From: an uncultured Methanobrevibacter sp. | GTDB taxonomy: Archaea; Methanobacteriota; Methanobacteria; Methanobacteriales; Methanobacteriaceae | NCBI RefSeq assembly: GCF_902788255.1 | Contig: NZ_CADAJR010000004.1 | Coordinates: 1-64,000 of the forward strand | Direction of reading: 5' to 3' | Length of the DNA: 64,000 nt | In this document: piece after piece, positions 15,650-24,008 of the stretch | How positions within the stretch are numbered: position 1 is the stretch's first letter | Layout of the letters: every line of letters begins with the position of its first letter | Notes under the pieces: generated by a model | The model's database searches: none | The model's input: only the letters and a program-made list of their open reading frames with translations | What the model was told of the DNA's origin: nothing | Position numbers and translations under genes: made by a program

Positions 15650-16735
15650 TCATCCATTATTTAATAGATAATCGACAATCCTTTGAGATGAACGACCGTC
15701 AATTTCATCAAATTGTGTCTTTACAAACTCTGATATTTTGCTTTTATCGAAGCTTCCATTTTTGATTACATCAATCAACTCATCTGATGTAAAAACTATA
15801 GGTCCTGGAACGGTTGTCTTAAAATCATAGTAGAATCCACGTTCATTAGCCAAATAATCCTCCAAATCATAGGTGAAAAATACTGTAGGCTTGTTTAAAG
15901 CGGAATATTCAATCATGATTGAGGAGTAATCAGTGATTAAAACGTCACTTATCATCATCAGCTCCTGTTCGGATTCAAAATCACTTACATCGACATATTT
16001 ACCCTTTGAGGAAATGTCATCCTTATAGAAATTTTTAATCTTAGGATGCAGCCTCAATGCCAGGACATATTCGCTTGACAGTTCCCGATTAAATTTATCC
16101 AAATCCAAATAATCAAAGACGTTATTGTATTTTTCCTCATCCCTGAAGGTTGGAGCGTAAAGAATGATTTTCTTGTCTTGGGAAATGTTGTGTTTTCTGC
16201 AGAAATCTTCCTTCAATTTATTTAAATCATGATTTTCAAAATAATAATCCATTCTGGGAAGGCCCAATGGCTTGATTTTGGATTTTTCAATTTGGAAAGC
16301 TTCACTATAATAATCTACAATCTTTTTTGAAGTGACAATCAAATAATCAGTCTTATCGGAGATTTTTCCTAAAATTTCCCTACTTTCAATATCGACTGAT
16401 CCTCCAAATTTCTTTGAAGCTCCCGGAGCGTGCCATAATTGGACTATTGTATTTTCACTCTTAAATTTCATGAACGCCAACGGAAAGAAGTTATCATTTA
16501 AAAATATGAACTTGGAGCCGGATAACTTTTTGAAACTGTCAATTGATAACTTATCCTTATAAAAAAAGTGAAATTCAAAGTCTCCTCTTTTTTCAAATTC
16601 CTTTTTAATGTAGTCCAGGTTTCCTTTAAATGATTGTCCGGAATCGATTATAAAAGAAATCCTATTGTCCTTTACGTCAGACTTTCCGAACAGTTTAAAA
16701 ATTAAACCGTAGAGCTTATGTTTAAAATATGACAT
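15650..16735 (-). CDS. CDP-glycerol glycerophosphotransferase family protein
   Basis: Member of the TagB/TagF family, which in Gram-positive bacteria transfers glycerol phosphate from CDP-glycerol to a lipid-linked teichoic acid chain. The 361 residues show the family hallmarks: QLWHAPGASKKFGG (about 99-112), the GLPRMDYYF region, ILYAPTFRDEE (about 191-201), ALRLHPK, and a late DVLITDYSSIMIEY motif (about 247-260). No membrane segment is evident. It lies between the glycosyltransferases and the two small membrane proteins. The archaeal substrate may be another CDP-polyol or ribitol; this is not visible in sequence. Confidence 0.88.
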   Translation of the reverse strand: MSYFKHKLYGLIFKLFGKSDVKDNRISFIIDSGQSFKGNLDYIKKEFEKRGDFEFHFFYKDKLSIDSFKKLSGSKFIFLNDNFFPLAFMKFKSENTIVQLWHAPGASKKFGGSVDIESREILGKISDKTDYLIVTSKKIVDYYSEAFQIEKSKIKPLGLPRMDYYFENHDLNKLKEDFCRKHNISQDKKIILYAPTFRDEEKYNNVFDYLDLDKFNRELSSEYVLALRLHPKIKNFYKDDISSKGKYVDVSDFESEQELMMISDVLITDYSSIMIEYSALNKPTVFFTYDLEDYLANERGFYYDFKTTVPGPIVFTSDELIDVIKNGSFDKSKISEFVKTQFDEIDGRSSQRIVDYLLNNG

Positions 16736-16741
16736 GACAAT

Positions 16742-17023
16742 CTAGTGGAAAAATGCAAGCATACCAGGAATTGCGCCTAAAATCGCCTGAATACCTAAAA
16801 TGAATATTGCTAAACCGCCGATGAAATTAATGTATCTGGCATACTTCAATGCAATTTTTGTTCCGAATGTTCCGATTAAAAACCATATGACAACAGCAAT
16901 TAAACTTAAAATAGATAATATTAACGGATCAACATGAGCACTGACACCCTGTGCGGCTAAAATTAAGTTTTCAATGTTACCGAAAATCAATAAAGGTAAA
17001 AAATGCATTAGTTCAACATCCAT
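16742..17023 (-). CDS. Small 3-TM membrane protein, first of two tandem paralogues
   Basis: A 93-residue membrane protein with three hydrophobic helices (about 6-22, 36-58, 66-90). Helix 1 contains a buried polar pair in LLIFGNIENLILAAQG. It is clearly related to the next upstream gene (shared FGNIENL, IGTFGT and GGLAI-LG-QA). The arrangement resembles one half of a LysE/MntP/CadD-superfamily metal transporter, but that link is my inference. GGGGTGA lies 7 bases before this ATG and only one base before the earlier ATG, so the inner start is preferred. It is 2 bases from its paralogue, so the two are probably made together. Confidence 0.7.
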   Translation of the reverse strand: MDVELMHFLPLLIFGNIENLILAAQGVSAHVDPLILSILSLIAVVIWFLIGTFGTKIALKYARYINFIGGLAIFILGIQAILGAIPGMLAFFH

Positions 17024-17025
17024 AA

Positions 17026-17292
17026 TCATTCACCCCTAATGGAAGTGTACATTGCCTGCGCACCTAAAATAAGGATGGCCAAACCACCTAAACATTCAAT
17101 AAAATCAACATATTGAATCAGCATTTGTGTTCCAAATGTTCCAATAATCAACCACATAGAAACGCATAAAATACTTGCAATTCCTAATTTGACAGGATTA
17201 ACTCCAGCTACAACACCTTGTGAAGATAAAACTAAGTTTTCAATATTACCAAAAATAATTAATGCCACAAAAGGTAAATATTGCTCCAACAT
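17026..17292 (-). CDS. Small 3-TM membrane protein, second of two tandem paralogues
   Basis: An 88-residue protein with three predicted membrane helices and the same signature as its downstream twin: IFGNIENLVLSSQG in helix 1, IGTFGT between helices 2 and 3, and CLGGLAILILGAQAM in helix 3. Asn and Glu buried in helix 1 may bind an ion. The start at 17292 follows GGTGATT, a strong local ribosome binding site. It is the first gene of the surface-glycan operon, behind a TATA box at 17348-17359. Two three-helix proteins could assemble as a six-helix heterodimer (inference). No characterised homologue is recognised with certainty. Confidence 0.7.
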   Translation of the reverse strand: MLEQYLPFVALIIFGNIENLVLSSQGVVAGVNPVKLGIASILCVSMWLIIGTFGTQMLIQYVDFIECLGGLAILILGAQAMYTSIRGE

Positions 17293-17345
17293 CCAAATCA
17301 CCATTTCCCAAAAATAAATTTATCTTTAATAATGATTATTAAAGG

Positions 17346-17510: not shown

Positions 17511-18518
17511 CTATCTATTCGCATACATCTTTTCATAATATTCCTGATACTGGCCGCTTTTAACCTGGTTTGTCCAGTCCTGGTTGTCCAGATACCATTG
17601 GATAGTCTCTTTAATACCAACTTCAAAAGTATAGTCGGGATTCCAACCTAATTCATCCTGAATTTTAGTTGAATCAATAGCATAACGGCGGTCATGGCCT
17701 AAACGATCGGTGACAAATTCAATCAATGATTCATCCTTGCCCAATGTTTCCAATATCAGTTTTACAATGTAGATATTCTCTTTTTCATTGTTTCCTCCGA
17801 TGTTGTAGACCTCACCGAGCCTACCTTCATGCAGGACCAGATCTATTGCAGTACAGTGGTCATGGACATGCAGCCAGTCCCTGATGTTTTTACCGTCACC
17901 GTAAATCGGCAGTTTCTTATCCTCCAAAGTGTTGGATATCATAAGAGGTATCAGTTTTTCCGGGAACTGATACGGACCGTAATTGTTGGAACAGCGAGTG
18001 ATGTTAATAGGCAAGTCAAAGGTTTCAAAGTATGCCCTTGTAATCAAGTCACCACCTGCCTTGGAAGCTGAATATGGACTGTTAGGTTGCAAAGGAGTGG
18101 TTTCTGTAAAGTAACCGGTTTTGCCCAAAGTACCGTAAACCTCATCTGTGGAAATCTGAATGTACTTGTCAATGCCATACTCATTGGCGGCATTCAAAAG
18201 CACCTGAGTGCCCAGAACATTGGATTTTATGAAAATTTCCGGATCGGTAATGCTTCTGTCGACGTGACTTTCAGCGGCAAAATTAATTACATAATCTGAT
18301 TTTTTAACAAGCTCGTCAACTACATCCTTATCGCGGATGTCTCCCTTAACGAAAGTGTAGTTGTCCTTATCCTCAATGTCTTTTAAGTTTTCAAGATTTC
18401 CGCAGTATGTTAATGCATCAAGATTGATAATATGATAATCGGAATATTTGTTAACCATATACCTTACAAAATTGCTTCCGATAAAACCTGCTCCACCTGT
18501 AACTAAAATATTTGTCAT
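17511..18518 (-). CDS. rfbB: dTDP-glucose 4,6-dehydratase
   Basis: Second step of dTDP-L-rhamnose synthesis: NAD-dependent conversion of dTDP-glucose to dTDP-4-keto-6-deoxyglucose. The 335 residues carry the Rossmann GGAGFIGSNF motif at the N-terminus, the ISTDEVYG segment with the catalytic Thr-Asp-Glu, YSASKAGGD with the Tyr-x3-Lys pair, and the substrate-binding NNYGPYQFPEKLIP. The inner ATG is chosen because GTGATTATT precedes it. It is the last gene of the rfb operon and starts 5 bases after rfbC ends. Confidence 0.96.
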   Translation of the reverse strand: MTNILVTGGAGFIGSNFVRYMVNKYSDYHIINLDALTYCGNLENLKDIEDKDNYTFVKGDIRDKDVVDELVKKSDYVINFAAESHVDRSITDPEIFIKSNVLGTQVLLNAANEYGIDKYIQISTDEVYGTLGKTGYFTETTPLQPNSPYSASKAGGDLITRAYFETFDLPINITRCSNNYGPYQFPEKLIPLMISNTLEDKKLPIYGDGKNIRDWLHVHDHCTAIDLVLHEGRLGEVYNIGGNNEKENIYIVKLILETLGKDESLIEFVTDRLGHDRRYAIDSTKIQDELGWNPDYTFEVGIKETIQWYLDNQDWTNQVKSGQYQEYYEKMYANR

Positions 18519-18523
18519 AATAA

Positions 18524-19084
18524 TCACTCATATCTGATATTGGCTTCCTTAAAGCTTTTCCATTCTTTATCCTTATCGGATAATATAATCTCATCAATCC
18601 CATCCAATGGCCAGTCAATGCCAATATCTGAATCATCCCACATTATGCCTGATTCATCCTCACCATGATAGAATTCTGTGCATTTATATAAAAATTCAGC
18701 CTCATCAGACAATACCAAAAATCCATGGGCAAACTTCGGTGGAATATATAACTGCTTTTTGTTGTCTTCAGACAGTATTTCACCATACCATTTACCGTAA
18801 GTCGGTGAATCGGCCCTCAAATCAACTCCAACATCAAAAACTTCCCCTTTAATTACACGAACCAGTTTTCCCTGAGGATAGTTGAGTTGCAAATGCAGAC
18901 CCCTCAATACTCCTCTAGAGGATTTTGATTGATTGTCCTGAACAAAGGTCAAATCATGACCGGCCTCTTTAAAGTCATTTTCCTGGAAGGTTTCCATGAA
19001 ATATCCTCTGTTGTCTTCAAAAACTGTAGGTTCAACAACAAACATGCCCTCTATTCCGGTTTCACTAAATTTAAATTTACCCAT
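18524..19084 (-). CDS. rfbC: dTDP-4-dehydrorhamnose 3,5-epimerase
   Basis: Third step of dTDP-L-rhamnose synthesis, epimerising C3 and C5 of the keto sugar. The 186-residue cupin has the family's FVEPTVFEDNRGYFMET-like opening (V-F-x-D-x-RG), the FVQDNQSKSSRGVLRGLH motif with the catalytic His, and YIPPKFAHGFLVLSD. Length is normal. The start follows GATGATTATT. It is 5 bases from rfbA and from rfbB, so these are surely co-transcribed. Confidence 0.96.
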   Translation of the reverse strand: MGKFKFSETGIEGMFVVEPTVFEDNRGYFMETFQENDFKEAGHDLTFVQDNQSKSSRGVLRGLHLQLNYPQGKLVRVIKGEVFDVGVDLRADSPTYGKWYGEILSEDNKKQLYIPPKFAHGFLVLSDEAEFLYKCTEFYHGEDESGIMWDDSDIGIDWPLDGIDEIILSDKDKEWKSFKEANIRYE

Positions 19085-19089
19085 AATAA

Positions 19090-19956
19090 TCATCTTTTAA
19101 CTAAATTAAATAAATATTGTCCGTAATCAGTCTTTTTAAGCTCTTCAGCTGTTTTCAATAGTACTTCATCATCAATGTATCCCTTAAGATATGCTATCTC
19201 TTCAAGACATGCAATGTATAGGCTTTGCCTTTTCTGGACGGTTTCTATGAAATTAGCCGCTTCAAGCAGTCCCTCATGGGTCCCTGTATCAAGCCATGCC
19301 ATACCTCTTCCCAAAAGCTCAACCTTAAGCTTTCCACGGTTAAGATATTCCTCATTGATAGAGGTGATTTCAACTTCTCCCCTGTCGGAAGGCTTGACGT
19401 TTTTTGCAATTTCAATTACATCATTGTCATAGAAATAGAGTCCCGGCACGATATAATTTGATTTTGGCTTTTCGGGTTTTTCCTCAATTGATAAAACATT
19501 CCAGTCATCGTCAAATTCAACTACACCAAACGCTTCGGGATTGTTGGTGTAATATCCGAATATGACAGCTCCTTCTTCAAGATTGGTTGCTCTTTTAAGT
19601 ATTTCTGTAAATCTGTGACCATGGAAAATGTTGTCGCCTAAAATCAGCGCAACATTGTCATCACCAATGAAGTCTTCACCTATGATGAATGCCTCTGCAA
19701 GACCGTTCGGATTTTCCTGAACGGCATATTCGAATGTTATTCCAAGATTTGATCCGTCACCCAAAAGATCCTTATACATCGGTAAATCCCTAGGAGTGGA
19801 AATAATTAAAATTTCCTTGATTCCTGCAAGCATTAACACAGAAATAGGATAATAAATCATTGGTTTATCGTAAAGTGGCAATAACTGCTTTGAAACCGCT
19901 TTTGTAATTGGATACAAGCGTGTTCCAGAACCACCTGCAAGTACTATACCTTTCAT
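19090..19956 (-). CDS. rfbA: Glucose-1-phosphate thymidylyltransferase
   Basis: First step of dTDP-L-rhamnose synthesis: joins dTTP and glucose-1-phosphate. The 288 residues match the short RmlA type, with the nucleotide-binding [20 protein letters not shown] signature at the N-terminus, KPMIYYPIS, and the [11 protein letters not shown] metal/sugar motif near residue 105. The inner ATG follows GTGATTATT. It lies 17 bases after the barstar gene and begins the contiguous rfbA-rfbC-rfbB block. Confidence 0.97.
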
Positions 19957-19973
19957 AATAATCACTTTGTACC

Positions 19974-20201
19974 TTATATTATTTTAAACTTTAAAAAATC
20001 GTTTTCATCCGATGCATCACAGAATGTTTCAATAATCTCCTTGTCCACTTCATCTGAATTAATCAGTTCAATTTCACATTCGATTTCACACAAACAGTCA
20101 TATAATGCATCCAAATTTTTACCATAGTAATCCGGAAAATCCAATGCTTCCATCAGATAGTCATGACCTTCCTTTTTTATCATTTTACCGTCCAATTGCA
20201 T
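19974..20201 (-). CDS. Barstar-family RNase inhibitor (immunity protein)
   Basis: A 75-residue cytoplasmic protein with the barstar signature [13 protein letters not shown] (25-37). Bacillus barstar uses Tyr29, Asp35 and Asp39 of this same segment to plug the barnase active site; the matching residues here are Tyr25, Asp31 and Asp35, and Asp62 aligns with Glu76. The longest open frame starts 19 codons further up inside the barnase gene, but the ATG at 20201 has GAGGT correctly spaced, gives the normal barstar N-terminus (M-x-L-DG) and lies one base after the barnase stop. It is acidic, fitting its role against a basic or neutral RNase. Identification is strong from the paired context. Confidence 0.9.
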
Positions 20202-20202
20202 T

Positions 20203-20652
20203 TTATACCTCGGTAAATGTGTTGTAGTGGTCATCGGTGTAGTAAACCTTATAATCACCGGTATTGTAAACTATCCTTTCAGCTCCACGGCTGGTTCCGT
20301 TTGCATTGATGTCACATTCTATGTATTTGGAATCACTGTCGGGCAGGACATGCTGTCTGTTTGTAAATGTGTCTCCGCCTATACTTTTTCCGGGAGCATA
20401 TTTTTTAAGCGGTCCTCCATGCCATCCGAGGTCCCTGGCTTCGTTTTTAGTTATATAATTACTTGGAAGTTTATGAAACTCCTTGATATATGCAGCAACC
20501 TCATCAACTGTACAGTATTCACCGTTTTCAACTACTTTTGCATTGCCTGAGTCATCTCCAAACTTCAAAAAGTCAAAAAATCCCGCACTTACAGCAGAAA
20601 TGCTGAAAATAACAAGAATCAATGCGAAAACAAAGACTAACTTTTTATTCAT
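20203..20652 (-). CDS. Secreted barnase-family ribonuclease
   Basis: A guanyl-preferring endoribonuclease of 149 residues with a Sec signal peptide (1-23, ending SAVSA-G), so it acts outside the cell. The mature part (about 45-149) aligns over its length with Bacillus barnase: FHKLPSNYITKNEARDLGW, APGKSIGGDTFTNRQ and DDHYNTF. Catalytic residues are all present: general base Glu112 (barnase Glu73), Arg122 (Arg83), Arg126 (Arg87) and acid His142 (His102); Lys69 and Arg99 (Lys27, Arg59) are kept too. Its ATG overlaps the rfbD stop (ATGA), and the barstar gene follows after one base, so it is embedded in the rhamnose operon. Confidence 0.93.
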   Translation of the reverse strand: MNKKLVFVFALILVIFSISAVSAGFFDFLKFGDDSGNAKVVENGEYCTVDEVAAYIKEFHKLPSNYITKNEARDLGWHGGPLKKYAPGKSIGGDTFTNRQHVLPDSDSKYIECDINANGTSRGAERIVYNTGDYKVYYTDDHYNTFTEV

Positions 20653-21488
20653 TTTATCAACTCAACATATTCCTTAATTGCTTCCTTATAACTTCTCAAT
20701 GGCTTAAAGCCTTTGTCAACCCAATTCTTATTTTCCAAAACTGAATAGCTAGGTCTTGGTGCAGGTCTTGCAAATTCAGATGCTGTAACCGGAACGACCT
20801 TAACGTCCTTGTCTGCAACCTCAAAGATGTATCTTGCAAATTCACACCATGAGCAGTTTCCTGAATTGGTGAGATGGTAAATTCCATAATAATCAGTTTC
20901 AATTAACTCAGAAATTCCATAAGCAAGATCAGGAGTGTAAGTCGGTGTTCCAACCTCATCATAAACAACAGTAATTTCCGAATGGTTTTTGGCCAATTCA
21001 AGCATGGTCTTTGGGAAATTTTTACCGTTGATTCCATACAGCCATGCAGTCCTTACAATGAAATACTTGTCTAGCGTTTCCAAAATAGCCTCTTCACCCT
21101 TGAGCTTACTTTTTCCGTAAACGCTGATCGGGCCGATTTCATCATCCTCTACCCATGGCCTGTCATTTTTTCCATTGAAAATATAATCGGTACTTATATG
21201 CACCAGGGCACAGTCGACCTCCTTACATGCAAGGGCCAGGTTTTTAACACCTTCACCGTTTACCGAATAGGCAAGGTCCTGATTTTCCTCACAGCCATCA
21301 ACATCAGTATAAGCTGCAGAATTGATGACAACATCAGGTTCGGCATCACAGATAACCTCAAAAACCTGGTCTTTATTTGTAATATCCAATGTTTTTGAAG
21401 TTGTAAGAATCAATTCATGATTATCCTTTAAAACTTCAGTCAAATCATGCCCTAACATTCCATTGGAACCGGTAATCAAAATCTTCAT
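20649..21488 (-). CDS. rfbD: dTDP-4-dehydrorhamnose reductase
   Basis: Last step of dTDP-L-rhamnose synthesis: NAD(P)H reduction of the 4-keto group. The 279 residues start with KILITGSNGMLGHDL (Rossmann), followed by DVVINSAAYTDVDGCE, the STDYIFNG segment, and YGKSKLKGEE with the catalytic Tyr-x3-Lys. The start follows GTGATTATT. It is first in the rfb operon and overlaps the barnase start by four bases. The other three rfb enzymes follow after the barnase-barstar pair. Confidence 0.95.
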   Translation of the reverse strand: MKILITGSNGMLGHDLTEVLKDNHELILTTSKTLDITNKDQVFEVICDAEPDVVINSAAYTDVDGCEENQDLAYSVNGEGVKNLALACKEVDCALVHISTDYIFNGKNDRPWVEDDEIGPISVYGKSKLKGEEAILETLDKYFIVRTAWLYGINGKNFPKTMLELAKNHSEITVVYDEVGTPTYTPDLAYGISELIETDYYGIYHLTNSGNCSWCEFARYIFEVADKDVKVVPVTASEFARPAPRPSYSVLENKNWVDKGFKPLRSYKEAIKEYVELIK

Positions 21489-21561
21489 AATAATCACTTA
21501 AAACTTTATATTACTTTAAGTATATATTATTATTAATATATAAAAAGATGGAGAGGGAATT

Positions 21562-22800
21562 ATGAAAATATGTATCATGGGACAAGGTTATATCGGACTT
21601 CCAACAGCCGCACTATTTACAAGAAGCCACTGTGAAGTTGTTGGAGTTGACATTAACGAAAAGATAATAGAAAATCTGAACAAGGGAATTATACACATTG
21701 AAGAGCCAGGAATAACCGACATCATTAAAAACGCAATAAAACTTAAAGTATACAAAGCTTCCCTCACTCCCGAAAAAGCGGATGCATTCATAATTACAGT
21801 ACCTACCCCATACATTTCAGAAAACTACAGTTGCGATTTGAGCTATGTCATTACAGCATGTGAAACAATAATACCTTATCTTGAAAAGGGAAATACGGTC
21901 ATTATCGAGTCAACAATAGCTCCGATGTCAACTGATGAAACCATCAAACCTATTTTTGAAAAGGCAGGATTTACAATTGGAAAAGACCTTTATCTTGCAC
22001 ACTGCCCTGAAAGGGTGCTTCCAGGAAAAATCATTCATGAACTGGTTCACAACGACCGTATTATAGGTGGAGTTACACCTGAATGTGCAGTTAAGGCAAG
22101 TGAAGTATATGGACAGTTTGTTGAAGGAAACCTGATGTTGACCGAAGCAAAAACAGCCGAACTGTCAAAATGTATGGAAAATACATTCAGAGACGTTAAC
22201 ATTGCACTTGCAAACGAACTTGCAAAAATTTGTGCCGAAATTGGTGTAAATGCATTGGACGTTATAAAATTGGCAAACAAGCATCCGAGAGTAAACCTTC
22301 ACTCACCGGGACCTGGTGTCGGGGGACACTGCCTTGCAATAGACCCATACTTTATCTATGCAAAAGCGCCCGAAACCGCAAAGATTATAAAACTTGCCCG
22401 TGACACAAACAATTCAATGCCTGATTTTGTATGTGAAAATGTCAAAAAAATCATTCCAAAGGGTAAAATTGCAGTATTTGGAGTTTCATACAAGGGAAAT
22501 ACCGGTGATGACAGGGAAAGTCCGGCATATGAGATAATTGCAAAGTTAAGTACAAACTATGAAATCGCAATTCACGACCCTCACATTGAAAATCCAGATT
22601 TCGTAAGTTTTGCTGAGGCGGTTGAAAATGCAGACTTGATTTTAATATTATGTGACCATAATGAGTTCAAGCATTTAGATTACAACTTCATATCTAAAAA
22701 TATGGCAAATCCGGTAATATTCGATACTAAAAATATAATAAAAAAAGTTCCGAATAAAATTAAATTATTTAATTACGGAAACTTATACGAATTAAATTAA
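21562..22800 (+). CDS. wecC: UDP-N-acetyl-D-mannosamine dehydrogenase
   Basis: Oxidises UDP-ManNAc to UDP-ManNAcA for surface polysaccharides or N-glycans. The 412 residues have the N-terminal NAD-binding GQGYIGLPTA motif (6-15), the ESTIAPMSTD segment, HCPERVLPGK, a central dimer domain with KCMENTFRDVNIALANE, the catalytic cysteine in GPGVGGHCLAIDPYF (about Cys259), and a C-terminal UDP-binding domain with GVSYKGNTGDDRESPA. GGAGAGGGAA precedes the ATG. It is divergent from rfbD over a 73-base spacer and overlaps the next minus gene tail-to-tail by four bases. Confidence 0.93.
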   Translation: MKICIMGQGYIGLPTAALFTRSHCEVVGVDINEKIIENLNKGIIHIEEPGITDIIKNAIKLKVYKASLTPEKADAFIITVPTPYISENYSCDLSYVITACETIIPYLEKGNTVIIESTIAPMSTDETIKPIFEKAGFTIGKDLYLAHCPERVLPGKIIHELVHNDRIIGGVTPECAVKASEVYGQFVEGNLMLTEAKTAELSKCMENTFRDVNIALANELAKICAEIGVNALDVIKLANKHPRVNLHSPGPGVGGHCLAIDPYFIYAKAPETAKIIKLARDTNNSMPDFVCENVKKIIPKGKIAVFGVSYKGNTGDDRESPAYEIIAKLSTNYEIAIHDPHIENPDFVSFAEAVENADLILILCDHNEFKHLDYNFISKNMANPVIFDTKNIIKKVPNKIKLFNYGNLYELN

Positions 22801-24008
22801 AAATTAATTGATTGGTCTGGTTGAATTTGATGGCCGTTCCATGCTTTTAGACTGCTCCATTCTTCAAATGGTTCTGTCCAGAACTTGTCATTAGAAGGTA
22901 AACCTAACGGCAATAATACTGCACAGCATGCATAAAGGCTACCAGTATTAATCTCATTTTCACAAATATCAATTTGAGAACCATTCAATCCACAAATCAA
23001 CCATCCTTCAGAGTTGAAATTTTGATTACCTGTGAATTGTTTTTGAATAACTTTTGTAAGTGCGCCTCTGACCTGACTTTGTGATATGTTTCTTGGCAAT
23101 ATTTTTAATAGTGCCGCCTGTGAAAGCAAATGGAATACGCCACAACGGTATGACAATGATGGGCCGATTAACGGGTAGGTTCCTTCAGGTGAAATCATTC
23201 TTTCCAATTGAGAGGACAATCTTGAAGATCTCATCAGTTGAACATCCAGAAACTCGCCATCACGAAGACTGTATTTTCTCATAACTTTTAAAATATCATT
23301 TAACATTGGGTGTATGACCAAACTGTTAAAGTAACCCGCTTCAAAGTCTTCACCATCAGAATAGATTCCGTCTCCAATGTATAATTCATCACGGAATTTG
23401 GAAATTGCATAGGTTAGTCTTTCCTTATCGCATTCACCTGTAAATTCCAATAGTGCAGCCTCAATCATTGAAGTGTACAATAGCCAATGATTTTCATAAG
23501 GCGCTATAATTCTAGTATTTTTAAGTTCACGGATAATTCTGGCCTGAATATCCATAGGTAAATTAAGCCAAATTTGATTTTTGGCCCTGAGCAATCCTTG
23601 AGCAAATAAAGCAACATCAACTAAAGACTGTTTAGGTTCAACTACAAAAATGTAATCATTGCTGTTTGGATTAACCGCATTTGAAATAGCTTTTAATGTC
23701 AATTTGATATATTTTTCACGGACCTGACCTTCCTCGGAAGTGTCTGCACCCAATTCCAACCATGGTGCAATTCCATTGAAAACACGAGCAAAAGCTTCAA
23801 GATAAACAAATTTCTGTCCGTCAGTACTTTTAGATTCAAAAGGCATGTTTTTCCTAAGTGATCCTCTTGCCAAATGATTCAGGACAGGAAATGCGATTTT
23901 TTGTAATGTTGAAACCCAAAAAATCCTATCATTCCAGACAGGAGCCTGTTCCTCGATTACTGGAGGCTTTTCTTCTTTTTTGAATCTAGTAAAAAATGAG
24001 TTGCTCAT
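22797..24008 (-). CDS. DUF2264 domain-containing protein
   Basis: A 403-residue protein without signal peptide or membrane helix. The body (about 25-380) matches the DUF2264 family: an opening FWVSTLQKIAFPVLNHLARGSL, FARVFNGIAPWLELG (about 72-86), and FEAGYFNSLVIHPML with YPLIGPSLSYRCGVFHLLSQ further on. Related proteins have an alpha/alpha-barrel look and are often found near polysaccharide genes, suggesting a role in glycan breakdown or modification, but no activity is established. It converges on wecC and has its own promoter region at 24009-24060. Confidence 0.8.
   Translation of the reverse strand: MSNSFFTRFKKEEKPPVIEEQAPVWNDRIFWVSTLQKIAFPVLNHLARGSLRKNMPFESKSTDGQKFVYLEAFARVFNGIAPWLELGADTSEEGQVREKYIKLTLKAISNAVNPNSNDYIFVVEPKQSLVDVALFAQGLLRAKNQIWLNLPMDIQARIIRELKNTRIIAPYENHWLLYTSMIEAALLEFTGECDKERLTYAISKFRDELYIGDGIYSDGEDFEAGYFNSLVIHPMLNDILKVMRKYSLRDGEFLDVQLMRSSRLSSQLERMISPEGTYPLIGPSLSYRCGVFHLLSQAALLKILPRNISQSQVRGALTKVIQKQFTGNQNFNSEGWLICGLNGSQIDICENEINTGSLYACCAVLLPLGLPSNDKFWTEPFEEWSSLKAWNGHQIQPDQSINF

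Follow-up and report, generated by a model that had tools for sequence, protein, structure and literature searches.

What would a Methanobrevibacter do with a secreted-type RNase of bacterial character, encoded together with its inhibitor between two genes for dTDP-rhamnose synthesis? Methane mitigation efforts target rumen methanogens, of whose secreted products little is known. The window analysed here is the whole stretch of 64,000 nucleotides, and the features of the locus, all on the minus strand, are the following.

20203..20652, minus strand: barnase-family RNase, 149 aa, stop codon within the coordinates
20584..20652, minus strand: Sec signal peptide predicted for the RNase (residues 1-23, MNKKLVFVFALILVIFSISAVSA; GFFDFL comes next), from a sequence reading plus an AxA-like site found by pattern
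20206..20511, minus strand: catalytic barnase domain of the RNase, residues 48-149, from the alignment
19974..20201, minus strand: barstar-family inhibitor, 75 aa, no signal peptide, ATG one base past the RNase stop
20649..20652, minus strand: ATGA overlap of the rmlD stop and the RNase start, 4 nt, from the sequence
20649..21497, minus strand: rmlD (rfbD), dTDP-4-dehydrorhamnose reductase, upstream of the RNase (PF04321, E 4e-101)
19090..19965, minus strand: rmlA (rfbA), glucose-1-phosphate thymidylyltransferase, downstream of the barstar (PF00483, E 8e-77)
18524..19093, minus strand: rmlC (rfbC) (PF00908, E 1.3e-73)
17511..18527, minus strand: rmlB (rfbB) (PF16363, E 1.7e-92)

The RNase matched the Pfam family PF00545 above its curated cut-off (E 4.5e-18; 66 bits against 24) over residues 52-149 and profile positions 4-97 of 98, and a phmmer search of the PDB retrieved barnase across residues 48-149 (1.8e-26). 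An earlier interpretation of this DNA, made from the sequence only, had described a barnase likeness throughout the mature protein; this likeness extends throughout residues 48-149, whereas the N-terminal 47 residues are not barnase-like, and only the signal peptide and a linker precede the domain. The AlphaFold model (mean pLDDT 86.8) also bears out the proposed match with barnase, since the top Foldseek matches were barnase and binase chains, with an rmsd of 1.0-1.6 A for nearly all of those listed and a TM of about 0.9 by target length. Equivalents of barnase Lys27, Arg59, Glu73, Arg83, Arg87 and His102, the six active-site residues named in the earlier interpretation, were all found where it had placed them. 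Residue counts were taken across 59-60 archaeal homologues, and the equivalents of Lys27, Glu73, Arg83, Arg87 and His102 were kept in all the full-length ones that were read. In classical enzymes barnase Glu60 serves in base (guanine) recognition and is their mark, membership of the family being possible without it; its equivalent is Gln in the window RNase and in 53 of the 59 archaeal sequences read, and a literature search on the specificity conferred by Glu60 returned nothing. Judged by its residues and alignment, the window RNase is a genuine member of the barnase family with an intact active site, so it would be expected to cut RNA and, given its leader, to be exported. The possibility of a pseudogene was rejected because the frame is open and the active site conserved. 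Whether GFFDFL might be a secretion motif common to several proteins was checked across the ORFs of the collected loci; apart from the RNases, it appeared in a solute-binding-like protein of the M. ruminantium-type loci and in little else.

The adjoining gene, recognised earlier as a barstar one base away from the RNase, indeed matched PF01337 above the curated cut-off (E 1.2e-12; 48 bits against 23.4), in the core residues 9-44 only, and phmmer against the PDB likewise recovered barstar over the core only (2.4e-5). Its model (mean pLDDT 95.7) resembles barstar more loosely, as barstar chains were the only Foldseek matches below E 0.01, with an rmsd of 2.5-3.1 A. The equivalents of barstar Asp35, Asp39, Gly31 and Asn33 were present in 60 of 60 archaeal sequences; Trp38 is replaced by Tyr in the window, and Glu76 by Asp, as in all 60 archaeal sequences. 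The two products probably form a complex. In the Methanosphaera loci L115 (8600-8842), L116 (7075-7320), L118 (7492-7734), L120 (7496-7735), L166, L168 and L170 a second, divergent barstar-like gene lies directly after the first; the one that was scanned had no Pfam match at E 0.01 and had lost much of the YYGxNLDAL core.

As the sequence-only reading had it, the RNase start overlaps the rmlD stop and rmlA follows, so that the pair lies inside a dTDP-rhamnose operon. This arrangement holds for the genus: the RNase followed rmlD in 40 of the 40 own-genus loci read, with rmlA downstream on the same strand in 39 (the contig of the 40th ends there), and the rmlD and RNase frames overlap by 4 nt in most of them, a subgroup having a spacing of 0 to +9 nt. 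An assembly chimera and a chance arrangement were discarded because the order rmlD-RNase-barstar is repeated in 40/40 other own-genus genomes examined. One explanation for such a position is that the RNase needs to be expressed together with dTDP-rhamnose synthesis, for example for being bound to or modified by rhamnose polymers, and neither G068 nor G090, both of which lack the pair, gave an rmlD match or a close rmlA. However, in the M. ruminantium-type genus and in Methanosphaera the pair adjoins unrelated genes, without rmlD or rmlA nearby, and rmlD adjoins rmlA with no pair between them in most M. smithii-type genomes and in G024, and with relics of it in G072. A functional link to rhamnose glycans is thus highly improbable, and as a general rule it was rejected, because the location of the pair differs by genus. 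The tie to strain-specific surface glycans proposed earlier finds no support, on the same grounds, as the position is fixed across one genus and different in the others. In G042 and G047, the latter of which we take to be M. smithii ATCC 35061, rmlD and rmlA are about 11-12 kb apart.

A search of archaeal genomes for the pair and for its association with glycan loci had been suggested; the pair proved widespread in the phylum, and the association limited to the window's own genus. PF00545 was detected in 89 of 152 genomes, always as a single copy: in 56 of 67 own-genus genomes, in 16 genomes of a second genus (one of them presumably M. ruminantium M1), in 15 of a third (among them a genome assumed to be M. 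stadtmanae DSM 3091) and in two genera with one each. The named own-genus records are Methanobrevibacter MAGs, mostly from ruminants, as well as M. millerae and M. thaueri. PF01337 was found in 87 genomes, one copy each and always beside the RNase, i.e. in 87 of the 89 RNase genomes, and no barstar without RNase was met among the 152 genomes. For two RNases no barstar was detected: that of G089, which lies at a contig end, and that of G012 (L104, 3088-3546), which alone among the RNases carries Glu in place of Arg59. In the Bacillus complex barnase Arg59 faces barstar Glu76. Downstream of the G012 RNase, on the opposite strand, there is a gene for a 153-aa secreted-looking protein. In G077 (L101, 7766-8322) the RNase is truncated to 82 aa and the adjoining barstar is intact.

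In a gene tree of aEF-2, the six genomes of the M. smithii type, which lack the pair, formed one group (support 88/74), and the sister of this group had the pair in 27 of 31 genomes, the four without it being scattered. One of the genomes of this larger group, G072, retains a relic between rmlD and rmlA, composed of an RNase-leader-like FFDFLHG and a barstar tail, ENEFLKFKILY, and its loss of the pair is therefore secondary. Two carriers classed in the own genus, G074 and G067, fell outside it; G074 may be a contaminated assembly, its aEF-2 being nearly that of G034. The simplest account is a single insertion that predates the diversification of the larger group, followed by vertical inheritance and few losses, although the pair may also be older and have been lost in the M. 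smithii-type clade. No strain polymorphism of the pair was seen. As a conserved, steadily inherited, single-copy pair of most rumen methanogens of the family, it looks more like the carrier of a standing function than a strain-specific weapon, one that is dispensable, given the absence from the M. smithii-type clade and the losses elsewhere.

The nearest relatives among the sampled bacteria (80 loci kept), with about 40-60% identity, came from gut and rumen Clostridia, Lachnospiraceae, Ruminococcus, Treponema and a few Paenibacillus, and nearly all of them have an adjoining barstar. Against these sampled bacteria, the archaeal RNases formed one clade (support 100/98, from few alignment columns). 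A survey of M. stadtmanae from 2012 listed a putative secreted barnase among the laterally acquired genes, with Firmicutes as the main donors (PMC3445992), and a transfer from gut bacteria fits this survey. An origin from a mobile element or virus was rejected, as no phage or IMG/VR relatives were found and the related records in the plasmid collection were only four, all distant. The pair thus offers a clean case of a bacterial pair of the toxin-immunity type that has settled into archaeal vertical inheritance, with its insertion site visible and later losses.

Selection on the genes was compared by means of dN/dS (Nei and Gojobori counting). The medians were 0.056 for the RNase, 0.287 for the barstar, 0.121 for rmlD and 0.051 for both rmlA and rmlB, values that rest on 37 to 105 pairs (37 for the RNase; 8 for rmlB), dS being saturated in most pairs so that the ratios derive from few comparisons. 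The RNase is under strong purifying selection, like rmlA, and taken as a whole the gene gave no sign of diversifying selection. The N-termini, typed by pattern alone, differ by lineage. Most own-genus RNases have a signal of the cleavable type, and the M. ruminantium-type ones a lipobox (VSGC); in Methanosphaera the N-terminus is mostly hydrophobic, shows no clear cleavage site and is apparently a membrane anchor; many of the bacterial relatives again have a lipobox. The RNase often seems to stay attached to the cell that makes it, a location that suits RNA digestion on the spot better than a diffusible weapon.

We read the pair as an orthodox secreted barnase with a cytoplasmic barstar, obtained from gut bacteria and kept for a standing function in host-associated Methanobacteriaceae, most likely that of scavenging RNA, or of clearing it, at the cell surface, a reading to which we give about an even chance. 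With its start overlapping the rmlD stop, the RNase would be made together with rmlD; Sec would then export it, and beyond the membrane it would work as an endoribonuclease that needs no metal. Barstar from the same message would bind any RNase that folds before export, and the RNA of the producing cell would be spared. RNA from feed and from lysed rumen cells, degraded at or near the surface, could supply the cell with phosphate and nucleosides; alternatively, the enzyme might simply clear RNA away. Scavenging or clearing is favoured because several findings fit it: the RNase is under purifying selection, occurs in one copy and has forms that look tethered, and phosphate starvation induces a Bacillus relative, balifase, which shares its operon with a barstar orthologue (PMC5021464). 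Against it count the lack of any obvious nucleotide or phosphate uptake gene adjoining the pair in the neighbourhoods inspected, the absence of the pair from the M. smithii-type clade, and the fast barstar, which could fit an arms race. This purpose, scavenging over antagonism, is the weakest step of an account whose families, active site, pairing, gene order, inheritance and purifying selection come directly from computation. The presence of an exported-type RNase in most sampled rumen Methanobrevibacter and Methanosphaera, and its absence from the M. smithii-type clade, make for a testable surface function.

The earlier suggestion of warfare or kin discrimination corresponds to an antagonistic role, in which a secreted or surface-displayed RNase toxin would enter neighbouring bacteria or archaea and cut their RNA, with barstar as immunity for the producer and its kin. 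Barnase-barstar is a recurrent toxin-immunity module, the simple pair having been regarded as an incipient toxin-immunity order by Zhang et al. (PMC3482391), and the hosts live in dense communities; the barstar is strictly paired and evolves fast (dN/dS 0.29), some Methanosphaera have the tandem barstar-like gene, and G077 combines its truncated RNase with an intact barstar. No positive evidence for warfare emerged, however: the RNase is present once per genome, shows no polymorphism and is conserved to the same degree as the sugar-biosynthesis genes, it is fused to no domain for trafficking or receptor binding, lone barstars were absent from the phylum, and sister genera and bacterial relatives have membrane-tethered-looking versions. 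Antagonism is hence a possible but doubtful explanation. In a more specific form, the captured bacterial RNase, with its Glu60 to Gln change and lineage-specific anchoring, would be a standing cell-surface system that attacks the RNA of bacterial or archaeal neighbours; we consider this rather unlikely, and if true it would be one of few antagonistic RNases in archaea.

A role as an intracellular toxin-antitoxin system, cutting the cell's own RNA upon loss of barstar, or as a barrier at the envelope that destroys viral or other invading RNA, would agree with two genes that lie side by side and are probably co-transcribed, one of them encoding a small inhibitor, in an order like that of toxin-antitoxin pairs. 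It is improbable in view of the N-terminal export signals or anchors conserved throughout, features that, together with the lack of a DNA-binding domain in the barstar (Pfam), also set the pair apart from type II toxin-antitoxin systems; the want of phage and IMG/VR relatives and the scarcity of plasmid-collection records argue in the same direction.

The sequence-only reading knew of no described archaeal barnase system; yet "simple barnase-barstar-like systems" had been mentioned in a few methanoarchaea by Zhang et al. in 2012 (PMC3482391), and these, like the M. stadtmanae barnase (PMC3445992), very probably belong to the same archaeal gene lineage as the window pair. Both are passing mentions. 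The present analysis describes how far the pair extends, its fixed position, the selection acting on it, its losses and the ways in which it is anchored; judged by the literature searched, its spread through the family, the constant site, the relic, the replacement of Glu60 and the anchoring types are new. With the barnase-barstar of Bacillus amyloliquefaciens the window pair shares the fold, the catalytic residues, the signal peptide and a small inhibitor that stays in the cytoplasm and keeps the equivalents of Asp35 and Asp39, the RNase domains being about 45-51% identical over the structural alignment; it differs in the Gln at Glu60, in a barstar about 14 residues shorter with Tyr for Trp38 and Asp for Glu76, and in the adjacent genes that overlap a sugar operon. 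Balifase and its inhibitor in Bacillus licheniformis also comprise an extracellular RNase and a barstar orthologue in one operon, but in a Bacillus host, with phosphate-starvation induction and other neighbours (PMC5021464). Polymorphic toxins with barnase tips have the same RNase fold and immunity family; unlike them, the window pair has no delivery domain and no cassette variation and is mostly inherited vertically, and neither tip exchange, orphan cassettes nor immunity arrays were met in the phylum, second barstar-like genes being confined to some Methanosphaera. The barnases of gut Clostridia, Lachnospiraceae and Treponema (L178-L202), alike in identity (about 40-60%) and in a usually adjacent barstar, differ from the archaeal RNases in their bacterial hosts, the Glu60 equivalent kept in those aligned, longer linkers and often a lipobox, and appear secreted or lipoprotein-like.

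Some further observations were made around the locus. In an own-genus subgroup (L064-L066, L075, L076, L080 and L084) a pair of ABC-2 type exporter-like genes lies between barstar and rmlA, and in six of these seven loci (not L075) the N-terminus of the RNase is shorter and Glu60 is kept. In the window, the gene cluster also includes a CDP-glycerol:poly(glycerophosphate) glycerophosphotransferase family protein (15650-16735; PF04464), a teichoic-acid-type enzyme, and a DUF2264 protein (22797-24008; PF10022) is convergent to a nucleotide-sugar dehydrogenase beside the rml operon. Two overlapping genes at 16742-17304 encode small, mutually similar membrane proteins of 95 and 92 aa, which had no Pfam match and are conserved after rmlB in the genus.
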